A stretch of DNA of 64,000 bases from an uncultured Bacteroidota bacterium (GTDB taxonomy: Bacteria > Bacteroidota > Bacteroidia > Flavobacteriales > Flavobacteriaceae), in NCBI GenBank assembly GCA_902622595.1, contig CACNQM010000003.1, forward strand, positions 62,001-126,000, given 5' to 3'. A program made the translations under genes and the position numbers. This document shows, piece after piece, positions 29,584 through 56,162 of the stretch. The notes beneath the pieces are model-generated. The model was not told the origin of the DNA. It did not search any database and saw only the letters and a list, made by a program, of their open reading frames with translations. Positions within the stretch are counted from its first letter, which is position 1, and each line of letters begins with the position of its first letter.

Positions 29584-32500
29584 ATGAAAAAACTAATCAC
29601 TAAAATCTTTATATTATTTTCAGTTGTTTTTAATTCCAATACCTCTTCAGCTCAAGACTATGGAAATTTGCAGAATGCACTATCAGGATATTCATACAGA
29701 TCAGTTGGTCCTGCTTTCATGTCAGGAAGAATAGCTGATATAGCAATTGATAGTAATAATGAAAACGTTTGGTATGTAGCAGTTGGTTCTGGTGGAGTAT
29801 GGAAGACAAAAAATGCTGGAACAACTTGGATACCACTTACAGATAATATGCCTTTTTATTCAACTGGATCAATTACGATTGACCCTAATGACTCATCAAG
29901 AATATGGGTTGGTACTGGAGAAAATGTTGCTGGAAGACATGTTGGTATTGGGCATGGGATATACCTTTCTAAAGATTCAGGATCAACATGGGATGACATG
30001 GGTCTAAATAAGTCTGAACATATCTCAAAAATTATTGTTCACCCTGATAACTCCAACATTATATGGGTTGCTTCTCAGGGACCTCTTTGGAATTCTGGAG
30101 GTGACAGAGGTTTATTTATGTCAACTGATGGTGGTAATACATGGTCAAATAAACTTTACGTCAATGAATGGACAGGTGTTACCGATATAATTATAGATCC
30201 AACTAATCCAGATATTCTTTATGCTGCAACTTGGCAGAGACACAGAAATGTTGCATCTCTTATCGATGGTGGTCCAGGAACATCTATATACAAGAGTATT
30301 GATGGTGGCAACACATGGAATGAGATTGACTCAGGTCTTCCAAGCTCAAATATGGGAAAAATAGGACTAGCGATCTCACCGATGAAACCAGAAGTTATCT
30401 ATGCAGCAATTGAGTTAGATAGAAGATCTGGTGCAGTATTTAGATCAGATAATAGTGGAGGTGTGTGGAAAAAAATGTCAAATACAGTAGCGGGAGCAAC
30501 TGGTCCGCACTACTATCAAGAGCTATATGCATCACCACACGTTTTTGACAGAATTTACTTGATGAATGTAAGGGTTTTAGTTTCTGATGATGGTGGTGAT
30601 AATTTTTATCAAATGAAAGAAATTAATAAGCACTCAGACAATCATTCACTTGCATTCAAAAAAGATGATCCAGAATATCTCCTAATTGGAACTGATGGGG
30701 GTATCTATGAATCTTTTGATGATACTGAGTCTTGGAAATTTGTTTCAAACTTACCTATAACACAATTTTATAAACTAGCTGTTGACGATTCAGAACCCTT
30801 TTATAATATATATGGGGGAACGCAGGATAACAATACCCAAGGTGGCCCTTCTAGAACATTTAAATCTGAAGGAATAACCAATTCCGATTGGTATGTTGTA
30901 TTAGGGGGTGATGGACATCAACCTGCTACTGAGCCAGGAAATCCAAATATTATTTATGCTCAATCTCAACAAGGCTATATTAATAGGATTGATATGACAA
31001 CTGGAGAAATTGTTGATATAAGACCACAAGAGGGCATAGATGATGATTATGAAAGGTTTAACTGGGATTCTCCAATTTTAGTGAGTCAGCATGATCCCAA
31101 GAGAATTTATTTTGGCTCTCAACGTGTTTGGAGGTCAGAGGATAGAGGTGATAGCTGGAATCCTATATCAACTGATTTAACAAAAAATGAGGAAAGATTT
31201 GAATTACCTATCATGGGACGAGTTCAAAGCTGGGAAAACGCATGGGATGTGCTTGCAATGTCAACATATAATACTATTACTTCTCTCGCTGAATCTCCAA
31301 TAAATGAAAACATATTGTATGCTGGTACAGATGATGGTATAATTCAATACACTGAAAACGGAGGAGAAACATGGACTAAAATGCCTGTTAATAAACTTCC
31401 AAATACTCCAGCTACAGCTTTTGTAAATGATATACGTGCAGATTTACATAATGAAAAAACAGCATATGTTGTTCTAGACAACCACAAGTTTGGTGATTAT
31501 AAGCCTTATCTATTTAAAACAATAGATGGAGGTAAAAAATGGGTAAACATCACTGATGGTTTACCTGATGGTACATTACTGTGGAGAATTGTTCAAGATC
31601 ATGTTGATCCAAATCTTTTGTTCCTCGGAACAGAATATGGAGTCTATATAAGTTTGAATGGAGGAGACAAATGGTACAATTTTTCAAACAACTTACCTAC
31701 AATTTCGGTACGTGACTTAACAATTCAAAGAAGAGAAAATGATTTAGTTTTAGCTACTTTTGGTAGAAGTTTTTACATACTTGATGATATTAGCTCACTT
31801 CGAGATTTATCTCCAGTAAATCTTGAAAAAGAAGCTTATTTATTTTCTCCAAGAAGAGGACTACAATATACTCCTGTTAGAAGTGGAACTTCTAGTGCTG
31901 GAACAAATAAATATGTTGCTAGCAATCCTAGGTATGGAATTAATTTTAAATATCACTTAAGTAATACATATAAGACTATGTATGAAAATAGAAAAGATTC
32001 TGAACTTGATGGTATCATATCTGGATCAATTCAAGAAGAGCTCATAAGATCTGGATACGACACTCCTAAAAGTGTAATAAATGAAAGCACGGAAAGATTA
32101 CTTCAAGAAACTCAGCTTGATTTATCAACAATAGAAAGTGTTAAAAGAAAATTAATTGAAAATCAAGGAAATTATGATGATATTGATTTCCCTGGATGGG
32201 ATTATCTTGAAATGGAAATGAATGAAATTTCCCCTAAAATTTTTGTTGAAATAAGAGATAATCAAAATCAATTGATTGAAAAAATTTATGGATCAAGAAG
32301 AAAAGGATTAAATAATATAAATTGGGATCTTAAAAGATCTATACCTACAGTTTCATATACAGATTCAAAAAGGTATGGAGAGATTAGATTGAATGTAAAG
32401 CCAGGAACCTATTCTGCTGCAATATTCAAAAATATTGATGGTGAAATATCTAAACTTACAGATGATGTGTCATTCCAGGTTGAAAGAGTCAGAGAAAACA

Positions 32501-32985
32501 TTTTAAAAAATCCAATGTCTAATCTTCATGAAACACATTTTGATAATGCTGCTAATTTTATTCAAACTGTTGTAGAAATGGAGAAGGAATATTCAAAATC
32601 TTCAGATATCTTAGAACTGATGGAGAAAAATGTTAAATTCTTGAGTTCTGAAAATAATGACTTAATTAAGTCTATTTATGATTTATCGGACGAAAAAACA
32701 CAAATTAGTATAAAAATTAATGGATATGAATCTAAAGGAGCAAGAAATGAAGGTGTAGGAGAAAAGGATTTCCAGACTATAATGGACAGAGTTTATAATT
32801 CAATTGAAGGAACTGGCTATAGTTCTAATACTTATGGACCTACCAAGCAACACATGAAAAGTTTAGATATTGCTAAGGAGATGTATCAAAGACTTGAGCC
32901 AAGAGTCAATAAGTTTAACAGTGATGTTGAGAAATTAGCTAATAAAATTGAAAGTTTAGGAACACCAACTATTATTGAAGATTAA
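29584..32985 (+). CDS. exported Vps10/BNR-repeat beta-propeller protein
   Basis: 1133 aa. Sec signal peptide (1-23, cleavage near SSA|QD). Residues about 30-760 are a large beta-propeller with at least eight Asp-box loops of the form S-x-D-x-G-x-x-W (for example SKDSGSTWDDM, STDGGNTWS, SIDGGNTWNE, TENGGETWTK, TIDGGKKWVN), as in sortilin/Vps10 and BNR glycosidase-like proteins. A beta domain and long helices fill the rest. Often named glycosyl hydrolase, but I see no catalytic signature; peptide or protein binding is as likely. No type IX secretion C-terminal domain is apparent. Its stop overlaps the convergent MscS gene by 4 nt. Confidence 0.85.
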   Translation: MKKLITKIFILFSVVFNSNTSSAQDYGNLQNALSGYSYRSVGPAFMSGRIADIAIDSNNENVWYVAVGSGGVWKTKNAGTTWIPLTDNMPFYSTGSITIDPNDSSRIWVGTGENVAGRHVGIGHGIYLSKDSGSTWDDMGLNKSEHISKIIVHPDNSNIIWVASQGPLWNSGGDRGLFMSTDGGNTWSNKLYVNEWTGVTDIIIDPTNPDILYAATWQRHRNVASLIDGGPGTSIYKSIDGGNTWNEIDSGLPSSNMGKIGLAISPMKPEVIYAAIELDRRSGAVFRSDNSGGVWKKMSNTVAGATGPHYYQELYASPHVFDRIYLMNVRVLVSDDGGDNFYQMKEINKHSDNHSLAFKKDDPEYLLIGTDGGIYESFDDTESWKFVSNLPITQFYKLAVDDSEPFYNIYGGTQDNNTQGGPSRTFKSEGITNSDWYVVLGGDGHQPATEPGNPNIIYAQSQQGYINRIDMTTGEIVDIRPQEGIDDDYERFNWDSPILVSQHDPKRIYFGSQRVWRSEDRGDSWNPISTDLTKNEERFELPIMGRVQSWENAWDVLAMSTYNTITSLAESPINENILYAGTDDGIIQYTENGGETWTKMPVNKLPNTPATAFVNDIRADLHNEKTAYVVLDNHKFGDYKPYLFKTIDGGKKWVNITDGLPDGTLLWRIVQDHVDPNLLFLGTEYGVYISLNGGDKWYNFSNNLPTISVRDLTIQRRENDLVLATFGRSFYILDDISSLRDLSPVNLEKEAYLFSPRRGLQYTPVRSGTSSAGTNKYVASNPRYGINFKYHLSNTYKTMYENRKDSELDGIISGSIQEELIRSGYDTPKSVINESTERLLQETQLDLSTIESVKRKLIENQGNYDDIDFPGWDYLEMEMNEISPKIFVEIRDNQNQLIEKIYGSRRKGLNNINWDLKRSIPTVSYTDSKRYGEIRLNVKPGTYSAAIFKNIDGEISKLTDDVSFQVERVRENILKNPMSNLHETHFDNAANFIQTVVEMEKEYSKSSDILELMEKNVKFLSSENNDLIKSIYDLSDEKTQISIKINGYESKGARNEGVGEKDFQTIMDRVYNSIEGTGYSSNTYGPTKQHMKSLDIAKEMYQRLEPRVNKFNSDVEKLANKIESLGTPTIIED

Positions 32986-34190
32986 TTGTGAAATTGAGTT
33001 AGTTCAAAACACTCAAGTTTAAAGTATTTAACAGAGGATAAGAGGTGGTCAAAGATATCAGAGGTTAAGGCCTCATATTTTGTCCACTCTTTGTCTTTTG
33101 AAAATGCATAGATCTGAATTGGAATTCCTTGGGAAGTTGGCTCTAGTTGCCTACACATCATAGTCAGATCATCATTTGTCATTGGGTGAGCTTTTAAATA
33201 CTGCTCAATATAAGTTCTAAACACTCCTAAGTTAGTTAAATTTCTTCCATTTAAAAGCATTGATTTATCCGCATTTTCTTTAATATTATGTGATTCAATC
33301 TCACTGCTTCTTTTAGTTAAATAATCTTGAATTAGTTTTACTTTTTTAAGTTCATTTATTTCATCACTTTTCAAAAATCTAACAGAACTAGGTTTAATTA
33401 AAAGTGATCTTTTGATTCTTCTCCCTTTCGATTCTTCCATTCCTCTCCAATTTATAAATGAATCTGACACAAGCTTGTATGTAGGAATTGTTGTAATAGT
33501 ATTGTCAAAGTTTTGAACTTTAACAGTGGAAAGATTTACTTCTATGACAGTTCCATCTGCATCAGAACCTTTCATAGTAATCCAATCACCTATCCTTACA
33601 GTATCATTTACTGTAATTTGAATACTTGACACAAACCCTAAAATAGTATCCCTAAATACTAATATAATTATAGCTGAAAGAGCTCCTAATGAAGCAAGAA
33701 ATGTTCCAATTTCTCTTCCAGTAAGAACAGATAAAATTAAAATGATACCAACAAACCATATGAATATCATTATTACCTGGATATAACTATCTATAGGTAT
33801 ATGTTTTAAAGATGAACTTTGTTTAAAATAATCTTTAACTGTTCCAAGAATAGACTTTACAGTTACAATAAATAATACAATAGTCAATGCCTCAATAATA
33901 ATTACCAGATTATCTGTATATGTAGGAATAACTAGGTATAGAAAAAATAGTGATGGTATAAATGACAAAAGTCTTGGAACCCTGTTCTTTATTAAAAGAT
34001 CATCAAATGTTGATAATGTTGATCTAGCTATTCTTTTAAAAAAAGATAGAATTATTCGTCTTGTTATAAAATTTATAATAATAACAATTATTGATATTAA
34101 TAATATTATAACACCCGATGATATAAGATTTGATAGGTATGGACTTATACCGTAATTAGATAAAAACTCAATTATTTCCTCCTTGTACAT
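32982..34190 (-). CDS. MscS-family mechanosensitive channel, YbdG-like
   Basis: 402 aa. Five or so transmembrane segments in residues 20-190, then the MscS beta domain with VRIGDWITMKGSDADGTVIE and FDNTITTIPTYKLVSDSFINW, followed by a C-terminal cytosolic domain. The long insertion and INWRGMEESKGRRIKR place it near YbdG/MscM. It gates under membrane tension and releases osmolytes. A terminator separates it from the upstream six-gene array. Confidence 0.88.
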   Translation of the reverse strand: MYKEEIIEFLSNYGISPYLSNLISSGVIILLISIIVIIINFITRRIILSFFKRIARSTLSTFDDLLIKNRVPRLLSFIPSLFFLYLVIPTYTDNLVIIIEALTIVLFIVTVKSILGTVKDYFKQSSSLKHIPIDSYIQVIMIFIWFVGIILILSVLTGREIGTFLASLGALSAIIILVFRDTILGFVSSIQITVNDTVRIGDWITMKGSDADGTVIEVNLSTVKVQNFDNTITTIPTYKLVSDSFINWRGMEESKGRRIKRSLLIKPSSVRFLKSDEINELKKVKLIQDYLTKRSSEIESHNIKENADKSMLLNGRNLTNLGVFRTYIEQYLKAHPMTNDDLTMMCRQLEPTSQGIPIQIYAFSKDKEWTKYEALTSDIFDHLLSSVKYFKLECFELTQFHN

Positions 34191-34201
34191 GGTACAAAAA
34201 T

Positions 34202-34229
34202 AAAAAACCCACCATTAAGGTGGGTCTTT
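34202..34229 (-). terminator. terminator of the six-gene array
   Basis: On the minus strand ACCCACC, loop TTAAT, GGTGGGT then six T. It lies about 20 nt after the last array stop codon and just before the MscS start. The plus strand also has a short T run (CTTTT), so it may work in both directions. Confidence 0.82.
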
Positions 34230-34248
34230 TAATCGTAAAATTTAATAA

Positions 34249-35019
34249 TTAGTTATGAATAGAAACTAATTCAAGTGTTACAAAATTTTGATGATCGCTT
34301 GCAGATTGAACACCTTCTCTAAGTTTTGTGCCTTGAAAAGTATCACCCATAGATTCCCAACCTGTCCTAGAAACTCCAGGTACTCCAATGTTAAAAAAGA
34401 AATGAGTAGCATTTTTATATGCATTATCTGTTCTCTCATAAATTTTCGCAAGACCCCAGTATCTGTGTTGTCCCATTAAAATTTCTTTTTCAACCAACGG
34501 TTTGATTATTTCAGATTCCCAGCTTTCAAAATCATCAGATTTTGCTATTGTAGATGTAATACTCATTCTATCTCCTGGTTCTAAATCCCCACCTGCAAGT
34601 ATGGTCCACGACACTCCCTCAATATGGTAGTTTCTTCTTTCATTACTTGAACTAGGCGAAGCATCAAACATTCTTGAAATTGCTCTTCTTGACATCTTAC
34701 CCTTATATACTTCTTGAGCGTAAGCAACGTAGTCTGCAGAGCTATAATTTGCCAATTGCTCTTTACTAGCAAAACTTGTAATTATAAAGTAATCAGCAGG
34801 ATTATCTCTCTGGTCGTTTGTTTGAATAACTTTCCAGACTGCTTGTTGAGTTTGTACCCCATCTTCAATTGCTTTTTTGTGAAGTGGCCCCCAAAATTTT
34901 TCAGTTTGGAGATAATCATTTTCAGTCCCTTCTATCAGGTCTACAGCGCTAACTATAGCATATTGAGCTGAAGAAGTTATTGTGAAAATAAATGATAATA
35001 ATAGTAATATTTTTTTCAT
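34249..35019 (-). CDS. exported two-domain paralogue 1 of a six-gene array (last gene)
   Basis: 256 aa, signal peptide 1-18 (ITSSA|QY). No named family recognised. The mature protein has two similar halves: VDLIEGTENDYLQTEKFW then AVWKV, and IAKSDDFESWESEIIKP then RYWGLAKIYE, suggesting a pair of dimeric alpha/beta-barrel (ferredoxin-like) domains. Linker hallmarks shared by the array are YKGKMSRRAISRM, NERRNYH and AGGDLEPGD. Gap of 11 nt to the next gene upstream and a strong terminator downstream. No lipobox and no sorting domain, so periplasmic or released. Confidence 0.75.
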   Translation of the reverse strand: MKKILLLLSFIFTITSSAQYAIVSAVDLIEGTENDYLQTEKFWGPLHKKAIEDGVQTQQAVWKVIQTNDQRDNPADYFIITSFASKEQLANYSSADYVAYAQEVYKGKMSRRAISRMFDASPSSSNERRNYHIEGVSWTILAGGDLEPGDRMSITSTIAKSDDFESWESEIIKPLVEKEILMGQHRYWGLAKIYERTDNAYKNATHFFFNIGVPGVSRTGWESMGDTFQGTKLREGVQSASDHQNFVTLELVSIHN

Positions 35020-35030
35020 TTTTTTTTGTT

Positions 35031-35804
35031 TTAGTTACGTGATGATACTAATTCGAGAATAATTTGATCAGCATGTTGACTAGCCGCTGATAGTCCTTGT
35101 TGAAGTTTTTGAAATTTAAAACTATCAGTTGGGAGTTCATCAACCATAGAACCACCTTCTACAGGTCTATTAAAAAAGAAATGTGTCATACCCTCATAAG
35201 CATTTTCAGTTCTTTCATAAACTCTTGCTAAACGCCAGTATCTATGTTTACCGTTGATTATAGCCTTTTCAACATATGGTTTAAAAAATAAAGATTCATA
35301 ATTTTCAAAATCATCATTTTGAGCCTGAGTTGGAGTTATAATAAATGTATCTCCTGGCTCTAGGTCTCCGCCAGCCCAGATTGTTCTATCAACTGTTTCT
35401 AAATGATAGTTTCTTCTTTCTTTACTTTCAGATCCCACATTTCCCATAATTCTTTCAATTCTTGCATTAGAAATTTTTCCCTTATGAGCTTCTTTTGCTA
35501 AAGCAACCCAATCTTGGCTAGTCCAGCTTTCATTATATGCGTCTAACTGTTCTTTGGAACTAAATCCAGTATTTATAATATAGTGAGGACCGTTTTCACC
35601 TACTTCAGAGGTTACTTTCCATACTGATTGCCACTCTTGTATTCCTTTTTCTATAGCAAGTTCATGAATTGGCCCAAAAAAAGCTTCGAGAGCCAGATAC
35701 TGATCTTCTTGACCTTCATTTAATTGAACAGCACTCAAAATATTATATTGAGCACTAATATTTAAGGTTAACGAAAGTGTAAATAGTAATATAAATTTTT
35801 TCAT
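35031..35804 (-). CDS. exported two-domain paralogue 2 of a six-gene array
   Basis: 257 aa from the ATG at 35802-35804 (MKKFILLFTLSLT); a longer frame to 35840 has no signal peptide at its start and runs into the upstream gene. Signal peptide ends NISA|QY. Belongs with paralogues 1 and 5: it shares GFSSKEQLDAYNESW exactly with paralogue 5 and AGGDLEPGD plus RYW-LA-VYERT-NAY with paralogue 1. It departs from the array pattern in the linker (HKGKISNARIERI). Function unknown. Confidence 0.75.
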   Translation of the reverse strand: MKKFILLFTLSLTLNISAQYNILSAVQLNEGQEDQYLALEAFFGPIHELAIEKGIQEWQSVWKVTSEVGENGPHYIINTGFSSKEQLDAYNESWTSQDWVALAKEAHKGKISNARIERIMGNVGSESKERRNYHLETVDRTIWAGGDLEPGDTFIITPTQAQNDDFENYESLFFKPYVEKAIINGKHRYWRLARVYERTENAYEGMTHFFFNRPVEGGSMVDELPTDSFKFQKLQQGLSAASQHADQIILELVSSRN

Positions 35805-35820
35805 AATTTTTAATTTAAAG

Positions 35821-36573
35821 TTATTCGACAATGTATACAAGTGTTAGCTCTGTTGAATCCATCATGTCTCTTGATGAATTGATTCCTTCCCACATTTTAT
35901 CCCATTTAAATCCAGACGGGACATCATATTCATTTGAACTTGTCCTCAGGTTCCATGCCATATGAGACCAGTCATAGGCATTATCTGACTTCTGTACAAC
36001 TTTAGCAAGTATCCATTGTCTAATATTTCCTTTAAGAATATTATCCTCTGCTACAGGTTTCCATACCATAGTTTCATAGTTTTCAAAATCATCAGATTTT
36101 TTTGACATTACATTTATGGTTGCTACATCTCCAACCTTGACATCTCCTCCAGCAAGTATTGTTGCTGAAATACCTTCTAAAATGTAGGTCCTTCTTTCAT
36201 TTTCAGCATCATAATCTGAATTATTAAAGAATCTACTAATAGCTCGTCTTGACATTTTACCTTTGTACGCCTCTTGAGCAAGTTCTAAAGGGTTATATCC
36301 ATTTTCAAATTGTTCTAAAGATGAGTAGCTTTCAAAAATAAAATATTCGGCAGCGGATTCTTGATCATTGGATTTTGGAGTTCTTTTCCAAATAGACCAA
36401 CCGTTATGAAGTCCTTTTTCAACAGCTTCTTCATGAACTTGTGACCAAAATTTCTCAAGTTCTAGATATTCCTTTTCACCACCTTCTTTTAAATCAACAG
36501 CAATCATTCTTGCATACTGAGCTGAGGTAGTTAATGTTAACATTAATGATAATGATAATAATATATTTTTCAT
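35821..36573 (-). CDS. exported two-domain paralogue 3 of a six-gene array
   Basis: 250 aa, signal peptide ends TTSA|QY. Second subgroup with paralogue 4: VDLKEG, ELEKFW, KGLHNGWSIWKRTP in half 1, and KKSDDFENYETMVWKP, RQWILAKV, SDNAYDWSHM in half 2. Linker YKGKMSRRAISRF and NERRTY are as in paralogue 1. C-terminus SSRDMMDSTEL resembles paralogues 4 and 5. Separated by 16 nt from paralogue 2. Function unknown. Confidence 0.75.
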   Translation of the reverse strand: MKNILLSLSLMLTLTTSAQYARMIAVDLKEGGEKEYLELEKFWSQVHEEAVEKGLHNGWSIWKRTPKSNDQESAAEYFIFESYSSLEQFENGYNPLELAQEAYKGKMSRRAISRFFNNSDYDAENERRTYILEGISATILAGGDVKVGDVATINVMSKKSDDFENYETMVWKPVAEDNILKGNIRQWILAKVVQKSDNAYDWSHMAWNLRTSSNEYDVPSGFKWDKMWEGINSSRDMMDSTELTLVYIVE

Positions 36574-36592
36574 TTGATATTTTTTTAAATAA

Positions 36593-37360
36593 TTAGTTAA
36601 TAGACATTATACAAGTTAATATTGATGGGTCTGTCATATCCCTGGAAGATTCAATACCCTCCCAAAGTTTTTCCCATTCAAAACCTGATTCACCTGACCA
36701 CTCACCAGGATTTTCAGCTTGTAAATTAAAGACCATATTAGTCCATCCTTCATAGGCATTCTCAGATCGTCCAATAGCCTCAACTAAGGCCCATTGTCTT
36801 AAATTACCTAAAAGTATATTTCTTTCAGCTACTGGTTTCCAAACTTTAGATTCATACTCTTCAAAATCATCTGTTTTTTTGTTCATAAAGTTAATTGAAA
36901 CTTTATCCCCAGTTTTTATATCTCCTCCAGCAAGAATAGTTGCGTCAACCACTCTCAGAGTGTAACTTCTTCTTTCTTTACTTGAGTCTTGCCAGCTGCT
37001 GGCCATTCTTTCAATAGCTCTCTTTGACATTTTACCTTTATACGCCATTTGCGCAAGATTTAATCCGTCTTGATTAGCAGTACCATTTTGAATAGCTTCA
37101 TATTGTTCTACAGTATATGAATCAAACAAAATATACTCAGGAGCTGAAGGGTCTTCATTATTTCCTTCAGTTTTCCACAATGACCATCCAGTTCTAAGTC
37201 CTTGTTTAATAGCTTCTTTGTGAATTCCTGCATAGAACTTTTCAAGTTTTAGATACTCTTCTTCAGCACCCTCTTTTAAATCAACTGCTGTCATAACTAC
37301 AATTTGTGAATTAACAGAAAATGTAAAAAGAATTGATAGTAATAATAATAATTGTCTCAT
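36593..37360 (-). CDS. exported two-domain paralogue 4 of a six-gene array
   Basis: 255 aa, signal peptide ends SVNS|QI. Closest to paralogue 3: AVDLKEGAEEEYLKLEKF, GLRTGWSLWK, MAYKGKMSKRAIERM, LAGGDIKTGD, DDFEEYESKVWKP, RQWALVEA, SSRDMTD. Gap of 19 nt to the next. Two ferredoxin-like halves predicted. No catalytic motif evident; conserved aromatic and acidic residues are the main constant features. Confidence 0.75.
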   Translation of the reverse strand: MRQLLLLLSILFTFSVNSQIVVMTAVDLKEGAEEEYLKLEKFYAGIHKEAIKQGLRTGWSLWKTEGNNEDPSAPEYILFDSYTVEQYEAIQNGTANQDGLNLAQMAYKGKMSKRAIERMASSWQDSSKERRSYTLRVVDATILAGGDIKTGDKVSINFMNKKTDDFEEYESKVWKPVAERNILLGNLRQWALVEAIGRSENAYEGWTNMVFNLQAENPGEWSGESGFEWEKLWEGIESSRDMTDPSILTCIMSIN

Positions 37361-37381
37361 AGTTTTAATATTAATTTTAAT

Positions 37382-38158
37382 TTAATGTGATGATATGACT
37401 TCTAACTCAATTGCATCCAACATATCTCTGGATTCAGCTAGGCCCTCAAATAATTTTTGATACTTAAATGTACCTATGGTCTCCATCATCTCATCAGAAT
37501 ATGAAGACTCATTATTTTTATTGAATACCATATGAGTCAAGTTTTCATAAGCGTTTTGATTCTTTTCATATATATTTACAAAGGCCCATCCTCCATGATT
37601 TCCTTTTAAAACTTCTTTTTGAATTAATGGCATCCAAACTTTAGTCTCATAATTTTCAAAGTCGTCATTTTTTTTAACCATTGGATTCATTGAAGCTTTA
37701 TCTCCAGGATTCCAGTCTCCTCCAATAAAAGGTGTCGCTGCAATTAATTCTACATGATAGTTTCTTCTCTCATTGCTATAATCCCCGACAGAATTCATCA
37801 TTCTCGAAATAGCTCTTCCAGACATTTTACCCCTGTAAACTCTCCTTGCAAAATTTGCCCATGCATCAGTGGACCAACTCTCGTTGTATGCATCTAACTG
37901 TTCTTTACTAGAAAATCCAGTTATAATAATGTAGTCAGGATAATCCTCATTCTGTCCTTCTGAAGTTACCTTGAAAACAGTTTGGCTATTTTGAACTCCT
38001 GCTTCAATTGTGGCGTCGTGAATAGGGCCAAAGAACTCCTCTAGTTTAAGATACCCCTCATCAGATCCTTCTTTAACGTCTATAGCACTTATGATAGCAT
38101 ATTGTGCATTAGTTGTTACTGTAAATAATAATATAATAGTTAGTATTAAGTTTTTCAT
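37382..38158 (-). CDS. exported two-domain paralogue 5 of a six-gene array
   Basis: 258 aa, signal peptide ends TTNA|QY. Subgroup of paralogues 1 and 2: AIDVKEGSDEGYLKLEEFF, PIHDATIEAGVQ, VFKVTSE, GFSSKEQLDAYNESW, YRGKMSGRAISRM, NERRNYHVE, NDDFENYETKVW. It departs from the array pattern in half 2 (HGGWAFVNIYE in place of R-W-LAK-YE). Gaps of 21 and 10 nt to its neighbours. Function unknown. Confidence 0.75.
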   Translation of the reverse strand: MKNLILTIILLFTVTTNAQYAIISAIDVKEGSDEGYLKLEEFFGPIHDATIEAGVQNSQTVFKVTSEGQNEDYPDYIIITGFSSKEQLDAYNESWSTDAWANFARRVYRGKMSGRAISRMMNSVGDYSNERRNYHVELIAATPFIGGDWNPGDKASMNPMVKKNDDFENYETKVWMPLIQKEVLKGNHGGWAFVNIYEKNQNAYENLTHMVFNKNNESSYSDEMMETIGTFKYQKLFEGLAESRDMLDAIELEVISSH

Positions 38159-38168
38159 TTTTTAAATT

Positions 38169-38921
38169 TTAATTAAGTATATATATACATGTTAATTCCT
38201 CGGCATCAAGCATTTCTCTTGATTCCTGAACTAGACCCATTAATTGAGTAGTTTTATAGTCCCAATCAGGAGTTGTGTTTTGTGTTTGAGCAAATGTATC
38301 GCCATTCATGATATTAAATGCAATATGAGTAGCATCTCCAGGGAAGTTTTCACTTTTATTATCAACCTTGGCAAGTCCCCAAAATTTCCTAATTCCTTCT
38401 TGTATTTGTTGTTCTGCAATTGGCTTCCAAACATTCAATTCAAGATCTTCGAAATTTTCATTTTGTTGAGTCATGTAGTGAAAATACATTTTATCTCCTG
38501 GCTTGATAGAACTTCCAGCATAAACTGTTCCTCCAACCCATGAAATTTGTAGTGGCCTAGCTTCAGCGACAATTCCACTACCATCCATCATTTTTGAAAT
38601 TGCTCTTTGACTTTTTCCGAGAGCTTTCTGCATAAAAGGAGCCCATTCCTGTTGACTTAGTTGCTTCTCGTCATTATTTCCAACTACAACATAGTATTGT
38701 GCCCATCCATCATCACCTTCCTTAGGTGTTCTTTTCCATACTGACCATCCGGTTCTATATCCAGCATCAATTAATGCTTTATTGATAGACATCCAGTTTT
38801 TTTCAAAAGCTAGATATTCCATGTCTTTTCCATCTTCAATAACAATGGGAATCCAAGTTGAAGATTGACTGAAAGTATTTAATGTTACAAACATTAAAAA
38901 CGTAAGTAGTAAATTTTTCAT
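38169..38921 (-). CDS. exported two-domain paralogue 6 of a six-gene array (first gene, divergent)
   Basis: 250 aa, signal peptide ends NTFS|QS. The most divergent member: IEDGKDMEYLAFEKNW, AGYRTGWSVWKRTP, KSQRAISKMM, YAGSSIKPGD, ENFEDLELNVWKP, RKFWGLAKV and SREMLDAEEL still align with the others. It has lost the ERR-Y segment of the linker. It is promoter-proximal, about 80 nt downstream of the tmRNA 3' end, with no clear TAnnTTTG box in between, so array transcription may start weakly or read through from tmRNA. Confidence 0.72.
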   Translation of the reverse strand: MKNLLLTFLMFVTLNTFSQSSTWIPIVIEDGKDMEYLAFEKNWMSINKALIDAGYRTGWSVWKRTPKEGDDGWAQYYVVVGNNDEKQLSQQEWAPFMQKALGKSQRAISKMMDGSGIVAEARPLQISWVGGTVYAGSSIKPGDKMYFHYMTQQNENFEDLELNVWKPIAEQQIQEGIRKFWGLAKVDNKSENFPGDATHIAFNIMNGDTFAQTQNTTPDWDYKTTQLMGLVQESREMLDAEELTCIYILN

Positions 38922-38998
38922 TATTATAAATTAGTTTGATTAATGATTCAATTTATAAAAGAATTTGTAAAAATAAAAATGAATTAAAATAGAATTTG

Positions 38999-39393
38999 TG
39001 GAGTCGGCGGGATTCGAACCCGCGTCCAAACAATTAATTAAATTACCTTCTACAAGCTTATTTATCTTTAAATTTTCGAGAGAATACTTGGTAGATAACA
39101 ACCAAAATATTATCCTTATCACTTTAATTTCAAATTTTATTCAGTGACAATAAAACTCTAGATTAACTTAATGGTATCTCATATATAAAAACTGTTAATC
39201 AAAGTTTTTATGAGATATCTAACTTCTCAACCTAGTTGAGATTTGCAAAGACTTACTATAATTCAGTCAATTATGCAGCTAGAGCGTAGTTATTTTCGCC
39301 ATTTAAAAGTTGAAAATTAATTTAACGAGTTTATTTTCAAACCTCGACCTGCTAATAAAAAAATTAGTATTGCTGTCAAAACCTGTCGACCCC
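38999..39393 (-). ncRNA. ssrA: tmRNA (ssrA), tag GENNYALAA
   Basis: About 395 nt on the minus strand. The tRNA-like ends pair: 5' GGGGTCG with 3' CGACTCC, discriminator A at 38999, and no encoded CCA. The T-arm reads CGCGGGTTCGAATCCCGCCG and the 5' part GACAGGTTTTGACAGC is typical. The tag frame at 39271-39300 reads GGC GAA AAT AAC TAC GCT CTA GCT GCA TAA, that is GENNYALAA and stop. It rescues stalled ribosomes and marks products for proteolysis. One-piece, not permuted. Confidence 0.95.
39271..39300 (-). other. tmRNA proteolysis-tag reading frame
   Basis: Nine codons plus TAA encode GENNYALAA; resume codon GGC. The tag ends in ALAA as required for ClpXP/ClpAP-type recognition and matches Bacteroidota tags. 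Confidence 0.93.
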
Positions 39394-39439: not shown

Positions 39440-40240
39440 TTAAAGTTTAGAGGTTACTTCTTTTAATTCTAATAGATTGGAAAGTAAATTTTCAAGGTTT
39501 TTAATATCTAACATGTTAGATCCGTCACTTTTTGCCTCAGATAGCTTAGTGTGTGTTTCAAGAAAGATGCCATCTACATTATTTACTATTCCAGCTCTTG
39601 CTAATGACTCAATATGCTCGGGACTTCCCCCTGTAATTCCAGAAATTTGATTTGGCTTTTGAACTGAATGAGTCACATCTAAAATAGTCGGGGCAAATTT
39701 TTTTAATTCTGAGATTCCTCTGAAGTCAACAATTAGATCATTGTAGCCAAATTGAGTCCCTCTCTCTGTTATAATCACTTTATCGTTCCCGGATTGTTTA
39801 ACTTTATCAACTGCATATTTCATGCTTTCTGCACTCATAAACTGTCCCTTTTTTATATTAATTGTTTTCTCAGTTTTAGCTGCATTTACTAATATATCCG
39901 TCTGTCTAGCTAAGAAAGCTGGAATTTGAATTATATCAACATATTCAGCAGCCAATTTTGCTTCATCCTTACCATGTATATCTGTTATAACTGGAACATT
40001 AAACTCAGATTTTATCATCTTCAAGATTTTTAATGCTTTTAAATCTCCAATACCAGTGAAACTATCAAGTCTAGTTCTATTTGCTTTTCTATAGCTACCT
40101 TTAAATACAAGTGGTATTGATAGTTTTGAAGTTATTAAAATAAGTTTTTCTGCTATATCAAGAGCAATCTTTTCTCCTTCTATTGAACATGGTCCAGCTA
40201 TTAATAGAAATTTATTTTTTGATATTTTATCTGTAATCAT
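39440..40240 (-). CDS. kdsA: 3-deoxy-8-phosphooctulonate synthase (KdsA)
   Basis: 266 aa. Condenses PEP with arabinose 5-phosphate to KDO-8-P for LPS. Family segments: IAGPCSIEGEK, FKGSYRKANRT, VPVITDIHG, KKGQFMSAESM, ITERGTQFGYNDLIVDFRG, DVTHSVQKP and IFLETHT. Cys18 in AGPCSIE, with the later His, Glu and Asp, suggests the metal-dependent class. Lies 2 nt after ftsE. KdsC for the next step is at 24 kb. Confidence 0.92.
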   Translation of the reverse strand: MITDKISKNKFLLIAGPCSIEGEKIALDIAEKLILITSKLSIPLVFKGSYRKANRTRLDSFTGIGDLKALKILKMIKSEFNVPVITDIHGKDEAKLAAEYVDIIQIPAFLARQTDILVNAAKTEKTINIKKGQFMSAESMKYAVDKVKQSGNDKVIITERGTQFGYNDLIVDFRGISELKKFAPTILDVTHSVQKPNQISGITGGSPEHIESLARAGIVNNVDGIFLETHTKLSEAKSDGSNMLDIKNLENLLSNLLELKEVTSKL

Positions 40241-55025: not shown

Positions 55026-56162
55026 TTAATTAATCTTGCCGCCTCTTGATCCTCCTCTTGAGCTACCTGAACTTACACCTGAGCTTGACCTTGAAGAAGA
55101 TGATCTAAATCCACTAGTTTGTGTAGGCCTTGAATTACTTGATCTTGAAAAGTTATTGTTTGAATATGAAGAGTTTGATCTATATCTTGTAGATGAACTA
55201 TTTGAATAATTTGGAGTTAAACGTGAATTATATTCAGATGATCTGTTATAGTAATTTCCTCTTTGACTTGGGTTTATTGATCTTACTTCGCTATATGCTC
55301 TTCTAATATTATCGCTTTTGATTTGACTTAAGTTGGGAACGGATCTATTTTTATTATAAACAGAATTTCTATTGGAGTAAACTCCAATTAAGTTATTGTT
55401 AATGTTTCTTGAGGCCTCAGCCTTTCTTTCAACTACATCAAAATTAACATTTTGTCTATTCCTGGTAATATATGAATTTCCGTTTATCGCACTTCTTAGG
55501 TACAAACTAGATGCTCTTGTTTGTTGAGAATTGCTGTCTCTTGTAACTCCATTAGATGAGATTCTTTCACCTCTCCTTGAAGCAGAATTGCTAAAGCTTG
55601 GTCTGGATGTATTAGAATTTTCATTACTATACTGGTATTTATTTACAATTGAGTCATACATACCACCGTAATACCACGGTAAGTACCTTCTGTATCTAGT
55701 CATATACCAATAATAACTTCCTGGTGAAGTAGCAAAAGGTGAAAAATAAAAACTATAATGTCCGTAAAATGGATAACCCATTTCATACCCAAAAAGATTA
55801 TGATAAAATGATGGTCCAAAACCATAACCACCATAACCAAGGTAAGGGTTGAATCCCATGTTAAAATAAAATGGGTCATAATAGTATCTTCCATAACTAG
55901 GGAAAAAATTGTTTACAATTTCGGTTGACTCAGGATTAGCTCCCCAAGGAAGATATTGTGAGATATTTTCACTTGAAGAATAAGAATCTGTCGGTTCTTG
56001 TAAATATTCACTAAACACAACCTCGTAATCAATACCTCTTTCACTGGACACGTAAATGCCATCGTTGTCTCCATAATATGATGCTAGTTGGTATGCATTA
56101 CAACCTATGAATAGGACTAATAACATAGATAAGATTAATAAACCTGAAATTTTTTTCATCAA
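55026..56162 (-). CDS. Tyr/Gly-rich then Ser/Arg-rich lipoprotein of unknown function
   Basis: 378 aa. Lipobox FIGC (C21). Residues about 85-175 are rich in Tyr, Phe, Gly and Pro (YLGYGGYGFGPSFYHNLFGY). Residues 180-378 are low-complexity Ser, Arg and Asn, ending SSRGGSRGGKIN. No family identified with certainty; flavobacterial relatives, where named at all, carry accidental names. Adjacent to the FadL-type gene, divergent from proS. The tail is probably disordered and could interact with surface polysaccharide or protein; inference. Confidence 0.75.
   Translation of the reverse strand: MMKKISGLLILSMLLVLFIGCNAYQLASYYGDNDGIYVSSERGIDYEVVFSEYLQEPTDSYSSSENISQYLPWGANPESTEIVNNFFPSYGRYYYDPFYFNMGFNPYLGYGGYGFGPSFYHNLFGYEMGYPFYGHYSFYFSPFATSPGSYYWYMTRYRRYLPWYYGGMYDSIVNKYQYSNENSNTSRPSFSNSASRRGERISSNGVTRDSNSQQTRASSLYLRSAINGNSYITRNRQNVNFDVVERKAEASRNINNNLIGVYSNRNSVYNKNRSVPNLSQIKSDNIRRAYSEVRSINPSQRGNYYNRSSEYNSRLTPNYSNSSSTRYRSNSSYSNNNFSRSSNSRPTQTSGFRSSSSRSSSGVSSGSSRGGSRGGKIN

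Follow-up and report, generated by a model that had tools for sequence, protein, structure and literature searches.

What are six tandem paralogues of an exported-type protein for, and have they been kept together as a set? The question is raised by a 64,000-nucleotide stretch of DNA (the window) from an uncultured Bacteroidota bacterium of the Flavobacteriaceae (GenBank assembly GCA_902622595.1, contig CACNQM010000003.1, positions 62,001 to 126,000), whose genome amounts to 1.34 Mb on 9 contigs at a completeness of 85.7%. Six intact, co-directional open reading frames (ORFs) of 250–258 codons lie on its minus strand at 34249–38921, with spacers of 10, 21, 19, 16, and 11 nt, between a transfer-messenger RNA (tmRNA) gene and a terminator-like hairpin. 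The initial annotation, made from the sequence alone, had reported this arrangement, and its coordinates and ORFs were confirmed.

The copies fall into clades A, B, C, and D of a copy tree (53 rows), which also holds a remote type E from locus L011 of a relative. Copy 6 (38169–38921, 250 aa, clade A), an exported-type two-module alpha/beta protein, adjoins the tmRNA gene and is presumably transcribed first. It is followed on the same strand by copy 5 (37382–38158, 258 aa, clade B), copy 4 (36593–37360, 255 aa, clade C), copy 3 (protein P0003; 35821–36573, 250 aa, clade C), copy 2 (35031–35804, 257 aa, subclade D2 of clade D), and the last gene, copy 1 (protein P0001; 34249–35019, 256 aa, subclade D1 of clade D). 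Copy 2 probably starts at the ATG at 35804 rather than at the TTG at 35840 of the mechanical ORF, because the ATG matches the start of the other copies. The other copies are 53, 45, 39, 45, and 30% identical to P0001. A search of the genome with P0003 retrieved the other five at E-values of 1.2e-79 to 8.3e-39, so the likeness among the six is not due to chance. The layout is operon-like, and the six genes probably form one transcription unit.

Conservation of the locus among relatives

In the genus, strong array-type matches (>240 bits) were found in 20 of 25 genomes. None of these 51 matches, two of them partial, carried an internal stop, in keeping with the claim that the copies are intact. 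The genomes without a strong match (G150, G151, G158, G163, and G172) are 55–82% complete. Where the relatives have named records, the titles read uncultured Bacteroidetes, Flavobacteriaceae, Flavobacteriales, or Cryomorphaceae. When one genome per genus of the family was searched with profile A1, 22 of 149 had a match, single in 15 of the 22, and most of them weak. An order-wide survey with profile A2 gave matches in at least 7 of 296 genomes, a lower bound with 9 candidates per genome scored in the rows shown.

The array is flanked upstream by the tmRNA gene (ssrA; 38998–39393, minus strand; Rfam RF00023) and by a gene for a DAHP synthetase I family protein, read as kdsA (39440–40240, minus strand), and downstream by a gene for an MscS-family mechanosensitive channel (mscS; 32982–34190, minus strand). 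The order kdsA–tmRNA–array–mscS was kept in 16 of 20 related loci. In L013, L014, L015, and L027, kdsA and tmRNA were not seen and the contig ends on that side, in L015 about 2.5 kb before the array. Between tmRNA and the array, L017 (2946–5108) and L018 (3032–5149) carry an ABC-F-like gene and a small gene, in opposite orientations. One isolate with a metagenome-assembled genome (MAG) has two different arrays on two contigs (L012 and L027), which suggests that its bin may contain more than one strain.

The 16 loci with both flanks hold one copy (L026), two copies (11 loci), three copies (L009), or four copies (L008, L011, and L020); the six of the window are the highest number observed. The order was C then D in all 11 two-copy loci. 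Two copies truncated by the end of a contig (150 aa in L013 and 145 aa in L027) were excluded from the tree and from the identity counts below. A copy number of 1–4 does not fit a retained array. These counts also bear on a secreted multi-subunit shell or mixed oligomer of the six paralogues, which the initial annotation had suggested. Some members of the protein superfamily discussed below, such as sulfur oxygenase reductase (SOR), form large oligomers. However, 11 of the 16 loci hold only two copies and L026 holds just one, and members have apparently been exchanged gene by gene, which a co-assembled shell should resist. The shell thus went unsupported, and we consider it very improbable.

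Identity of alleles at the array

Across the 64 kb, reciprocal-best genes of the window and four relatives had median identities of 87–94%. Among the five genomes, 15 of 21 reciprocal-best pairs of array genes were 56–67% identical and 6 were 87–96% identical, at regional medians of 87–96%; such pairing can pair different D subclades. Only 0–3 of the 23–61 reciprocal-best genes lay below the 56–67% array pairs.

A bimodal distribution was also seen when pairs were binned by the identity of mscS (19 loci with usable mscS, L012 omitted). With mscS at least 90% identical, C pairs were either 55–70% (14/19) or at least 85% identical (5/19) with none between, D pairs were either 55–65% (10/21) or at least 80% identical (11/21), and kdsA was 85–95% identical in 17 of 17 pairs. 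Without L017, 14 of 17 C pairs lay below 70% and 3 at 80% or above, the corresponding D counts were 10 and 9 of 19, and no pair fell at 70–80%. The identity of mscS gave a rho of 0.64 with that of kdsA (120 pairs), as against 0.17 with C (136 pairs) and 0.18 with D (153 pairs). An earlier estimate from 16 loci was 0.70, 0.29, and 0.17, respectively, with some pairs spoiled because the mscS sequences of L012 and L017 are pieces (88 and 186 residues).

Nucleotide profiles showed that identity falls sharply at the edges of the array or of single genes. Between L010 and L016, the flanks are 82–99% identical at the nucleotide level and the array 61–79%. In L009/L016, L012/L021, and L019/L008, the C copy is common to both loci at approximately 83–95%, and identity is lost in D. 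For the C copies, the approximately unbiased (AU) test rejected a grouping of L010 with L016 (p = 3.6e-37), which the flank tree places together (support 96/93), and a grouping of the window with L008, L009, L010, L016, and L019 (p = 3.4e-6), the flank clade minus its member L020; these groups were picked after the identities had been seen, a practice on which the test's own note urges caution. An identity valley between conserved flanks was thus accompanied by phylogenetic conflict, as in allele replacement.

Fast uniform evolution of the array was rejected as an explanation. Copies of the same class match each other about as closely as their mscS flanks do, which other copies at equal flank identity do not; we therefore take the values of 55–65% to represent old allele differences and not fast drift. 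Binning chimaeras are an unlikely cause of the divergence. The drop in identity lies within continuous contigs, and 12 loci out of 20 have isolate names of the AG- or AH- type, which we take to denote single-cell genomes. Seven of these 12 nevertheless have titles beginning with "MAG", L010 and L016 not being among them. These results give good support to allele swapping at the array. They also divide the earlier idea of old duplication with retention: the clades are indeed of old origin, yet no fixed set has been retained in the array, because copy number differs among the 16 related loci and the alleles, unlike the flanks, differ between lineages.

Sequence features and export

By inspection, all six proteins begin with a Sec-like leader followed by Gln19, and Gln19 was present in 60 of 60 members of alignment A2. 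According to passages of a phylum-wide account of the Bacteroidetes Q-rule, Gln stands at the mature start of about 71% of signal peptidase I substrates (PMC10653852). Since Gln19 of the family fits this rule, a mature protein starting with Gln is predicted. The leader is probably cleaved just before Gln19, and leader and Q-rule together suggest a periplasmic location. Glu40 is Glu in 57 of the 60 aligned members.

The motif layout described for all six copies was found in five. Copy 6 departs from it, with GKSQRAI in place of KGKMS-RAI, EARPLQ for ERR-Y, YAGSSIKPGD for AGGD, ENFEDLE for DDFE-YE, and NF for NAY. The description of the proteins as exported-type paralogues outside any named family agreed with their leader-like starts and with the profile searches. 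For P0001–P0006, all listed matches in Pfam and NCBIfam were below the curated cut-off, PHROGs gave no credible match, PADLOC gave no match, and no confident match to a characterized family was obtained; the best E-values over the 60 members of A2 were 0.0016 in Pfam and 0.0056 in NCBIfam, and neither pointed to a credible family. Naming the family by profile was therefore abandoned, the four resources giving either nothing or weak, mutually inconsistent matches. A sequence-profile search of the PDB returned nothing credible.

The same features bear on the possibility that the proteins are displayed on the cell surface or released, and have been diversified by phages or grazers with the fold as a mere scaffold. 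The high variability of the locus among relatives, which the neighbouring Sortilin/BNR-repeat protein shares, would suit this explanation. However, Gln and not a lipobox Cys follows the leader, and no sorting domain of the type IX secretion system was present among the Pfam matches of the 60 members. The most variable segments, located in loops, the alpha2 region, and, in clade C, the last strand, are spread out and seem to form no one obvious patch. We regard diversification at the surface as unlikely, while treating it as a serious rival.

Predicted fold of the array proteins

An AlphaFold2 model of copy 3, made with 60 sequences, reached a predicted local distance difference test score (pLDDT) of 92.2 and a predicted template modelling score (pTM) of 0.86. 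Its secondary structure, beta-alpha-beta-beta-alpha-beta repeated twice, corresponds to two ferredoxin-like modules. The internal repeat was also detected by hhalign, which aligned module 1 with module 2 at a probability of 97.0, compared with at most 0.62 in 20 column-shuffled controls. Among the 50 PDB matches listed by Foldseek (E-values 1.3e-8 to 1.6e-5, TM-scores 0.4–0.6), the best were the two-module alpha/beta-barrel proteins 3mcs, 5f9p, 2pgc, and 3f44, followed by HemQ/chlorite dismutase (Cld), PenE, and SOR. The chain titles read putative monooxygenase, anthrone oxidase-like, marine metagenome protein, HemQ, chlorite dismutase, PenE, and sulfur oxygenase reductase; we take these proteins to be members of the dimeric alpha/beta-barrel superfamily, a name that does not come from the titles. 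A remote relative encoded at another locus of the same genome was modelled with a pLDDT of 86.5 and gave identical leading matches, together with a bacterial chalcone isomerase.

Membership of the array proteins in the dimeric alpha/beta-barrel superfamily is thus well supported at the level of the predicted fold. The predicted fold and the internal duplication indicate that each protein would be an internally duplicated pseudo-dimer of this superfamily. The label "unrecognised" accordingly holds for the sequence and no longer for the fold as modelled. The array proteins share two ferredoxin-like modules per chain and a similar length with 3mcs and 3f44 (putative monooxygenases), 2pgc, 5f9p, and PenE (9kdp). 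They differ in being only 8–15% identical to these proteins, with loose superposition and no profile match, and in being leader-bearing, tandemly amplified, and allele-swapped. A viral origin was set aside: among the 50 matches listed against viral structures, the query TM-score did not exceed 0.41, and in one pattern-based scan of viral contigs, which did not extend to the collections of phage and plasmid records, none of the 88 stretches that fit the pattern encoded a relative.

The fold also raises the question of an exported haem, tetrapyrrole, or metal enzyme of the Cld/HemQ or SOR kind. Cld and HemQ have a conserved haem-coordinating His in their C-terminal half, and SOR has a mononuclear iron site. 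Both kinds are among the structural matches and have a fold similar to the one predicted here, and His204 is kept in 37 of 38 members of the array family. However, His204 is present in only 3 of 22 members of the wider family and is replaced by Asn in copy 4 of the window, as is His47 in copy 6. Unlike Cld/HemQ and SOR, the array family appears to have no family-wide candidate for a metal or haem ligand, and no Cld, HemQ, or SOR model appeared among its profile matches. An enzyme of this kind is accordingly doubtful, and with the shell it is one of the two weaker alternatives.

Selection and exchange between copies

The ratio of nonsynonymous to synonymous substitution rates (dN/dS), obtained by a simple count, was 0.02–0.22 in 18 between-genome pairs and 0.30 in two paralogue pairs within the window; many of these values are rough, because 14 of the 20 pairs had a dS above 1. 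The array genes are constrained, with purifying selection on average; selection in favour of diversity may also act. General homogenization of the leaders by gene conversion was rejected, since their mean likeness was 0.61 within loci (49 pairs) and 0.63 between loci (1127 pairs). One clear case of a leader exchanged between copies was found in copies 2 and 4 of L008 (L008:4429–5202 and L008:6001–6768), which are alike at 59 of the first 60 nt and about 60% alike thereafter. Window copies 1 and 3, at 0.82, are a weaker case.

Periplasmic immunity or decoy proteins against the antagonists of competitors or phages, with a turnover that mirrors changing attackers, would be another way to account for such an array. 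With its diverged homologues in tandem and in varying copy number, the array resembles the rAID orphan immunity arrays of gut Bacteroidales, as these are portrayed in parts of PMC12247911, and export would suit toxins that act in the periplasm. The window array differs from rAID, as far as those parts describe it, in that none of the eight flanking proteins examined is a recombinase, and in having a fixed chromosomal site, no known effector, and leader-bearing alpha/beta-barrel proteins instead of SUKH-domain proteins. The flanks examined comprised the kdsA-like gene, tmRNA, mscS, the Sortilin/BNR gene, and genes for an ABC transporter, an amidohydrolase, an asparagine synthase, a DDAH, and an ADI-like protein. 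No match to VipB, the sheath protein of the type VI secretion system (T6SS), was obtained in the 25 genus genomes, in a search whose only positive among 14 controls was E. coli, so that a Bacteroidota T6SS may be missed. The lack of a PADLOC match and the purifying selection likewise argue against immunity, and the invariable order of C then D in two-copy loci better suits a physiological pair. Immunity-like recognition is a serious rival, though a rather unlikely one.

Neighbouring features and a second locus

Downstream of copy 1, a hairpin of 13 pairs resembling an intrinsic terminator lies at 34201–34231 on the minus strand. The intergenic stretch between tmRNA and the array (38922–38997, minus strand) contains a sigma-70-like match, TTGAAT-17-TATAAT, at 38951–38923, which might serve as the array promoter; 43 such matches occur in the scanned 7 kb, compared with 33.6 in shuffles. 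The Sortilin/BNR-repeat gene (29584–32985, plus strand) adjoins mscS. Its product is 95% identical in L020 (C-terminal half), as against about 40–50% at the remaining loci compared, and these identities do not track those of mscS (rho 0.07). Farther along the window, a protein of 377 aa (55026–56159) begins with a leader-like segment and matches nothing in Pfam; it is only 60–62% identical in all four relatives, against regional medians of 87–94%.

A second tandem pair of relatives was located elsewhere in the window genome (G000:C1:354846–356320; L110:8847–10333), in a gene order conserved in several relatives. Compared with G170 and G161, the flanks are mostly 80–98% identical, and the sole reciprocal-best copy is 53% and 55% identical, respectively; in G170, two upstream genes drop to 59–62%. 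In the comparison with G172, the copies reach identities of 76 and 95%. G169, G167, G163, G168, and others say little on this locus, because many of their flanking genes are themselves at 50–80%. The second locus thus provides supporting evidence for swapping that is similar to, though less clean than, that at the array.

On the same stretch, two further genes of exported type (L110:14026–14793 and L110:18765–19448) matched the family profile weakly when a small local set was searched (E-values of 2e-4 and 4e-7). One of them is variable, at 94% in G161 and 35% in G172 and G160. For the other, G160 alone of the stretches compared gave a reciprocal match, which the ends of the stretches may partly explain.

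Discussion

The explanation that we favour, and to which we give an even chance, is that the array encodes allele-swapped exported proteins of a ligand-binding or cofactor-light oxygenase type, with the locus serving as a cassette site. The six genes would be transcribed as a unit and yield soluble exported proteins, from which the leader would be removed before Gln19 to leave a mature protein starting with Gln. These proteins would bind, and possibly oxygenate in a cofactor-free or cofactor-light manner, small and probably hydrophobic compounds in the periplasm, with a specificity that differs between paralogues and alleles; the class of ligand or substrate is conjectured here, as is the route of recombination. 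The interval from kdsA–tmRNA to mscS would act as the cassette site, where single genes or the whole array may be swapped by homologous recombination that takes place in the conserved flanks and also from copy to copy. The incoming sequences would be old allele classes circulating among species, and copy number would shift from 1 to 6 in the process.

Several observations weigh against this explanation. There is no sequence-level match to any characterized family, no catalytic or ligand residue was identified from the 60-member alignment, and the only invariant columns over its members are Met1, Gln19, and Gly54. The Foldseek superpositions are loose, with root-mean-square deviations of 5–9 Å, so they support the superfamily and nothing finer, and no catalytic identity follows from them. 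The periplasmic location is drawn from the leader and the Q-rule, which would also leave room for surface exposure. The dN/dS values indicate purifying selection and not gene-wide diversification, and of the 49 within-locus pairs, one bore a strong sign of exchange between copies. The clean bimodal gap is a property of close relatives only: at mscS identities of 75–90%, most pairs lay below 70% (C, 90/101; D, 107/132), and 4 C and 11 D pairs fell at 70–80%. Identity pairs share loci and are not independent.

A broader and less probable reading is that streamlined marine flavobacteria possess a trans-species polymorphic system of exported alpha/beta-barrel proteins that spans several loci. Two loci or more would swap ancient allele classes by homologous recombination, because their proteins would recognize variable partners such as toxins, phage proteins, or competitor metabolites. 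In marine and halophilic bacteria, the islands known as hypervariable or metagenomic have conserved flanks around a region that varies between close relatives. The array locus is likewise conserved at its flanks and variable in its interior, but its variation is allelic, confined to one homologous family, and resolved to single genes, in contrast to the unrelated gene content of such islands.

If the broader reading of a polymorphic system at several loci is correct, these proteins would represent an exported repertoire for recognition or detoxification. It appears to be undescribed as far as our limited literature search goes; this search, narrow and restricted to open-licence papers, returned no paper on the family or the locus. 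In our judgement, six paralogues of one exported protein are unexpected in a genome of approximately 1.3 Mb. The family can now be described by its predicted fold, its locus, and its population-genetic signature. The amplification of an unnamed family whose genes stay intact and are swapped one by one between close relatives suggests that marine flavobacteria are under strong ecological pressure, and raises the question of what a two-module alpha/beta-barrel outside the cytoplasm may recognize that rewards differing from one's neighbours.

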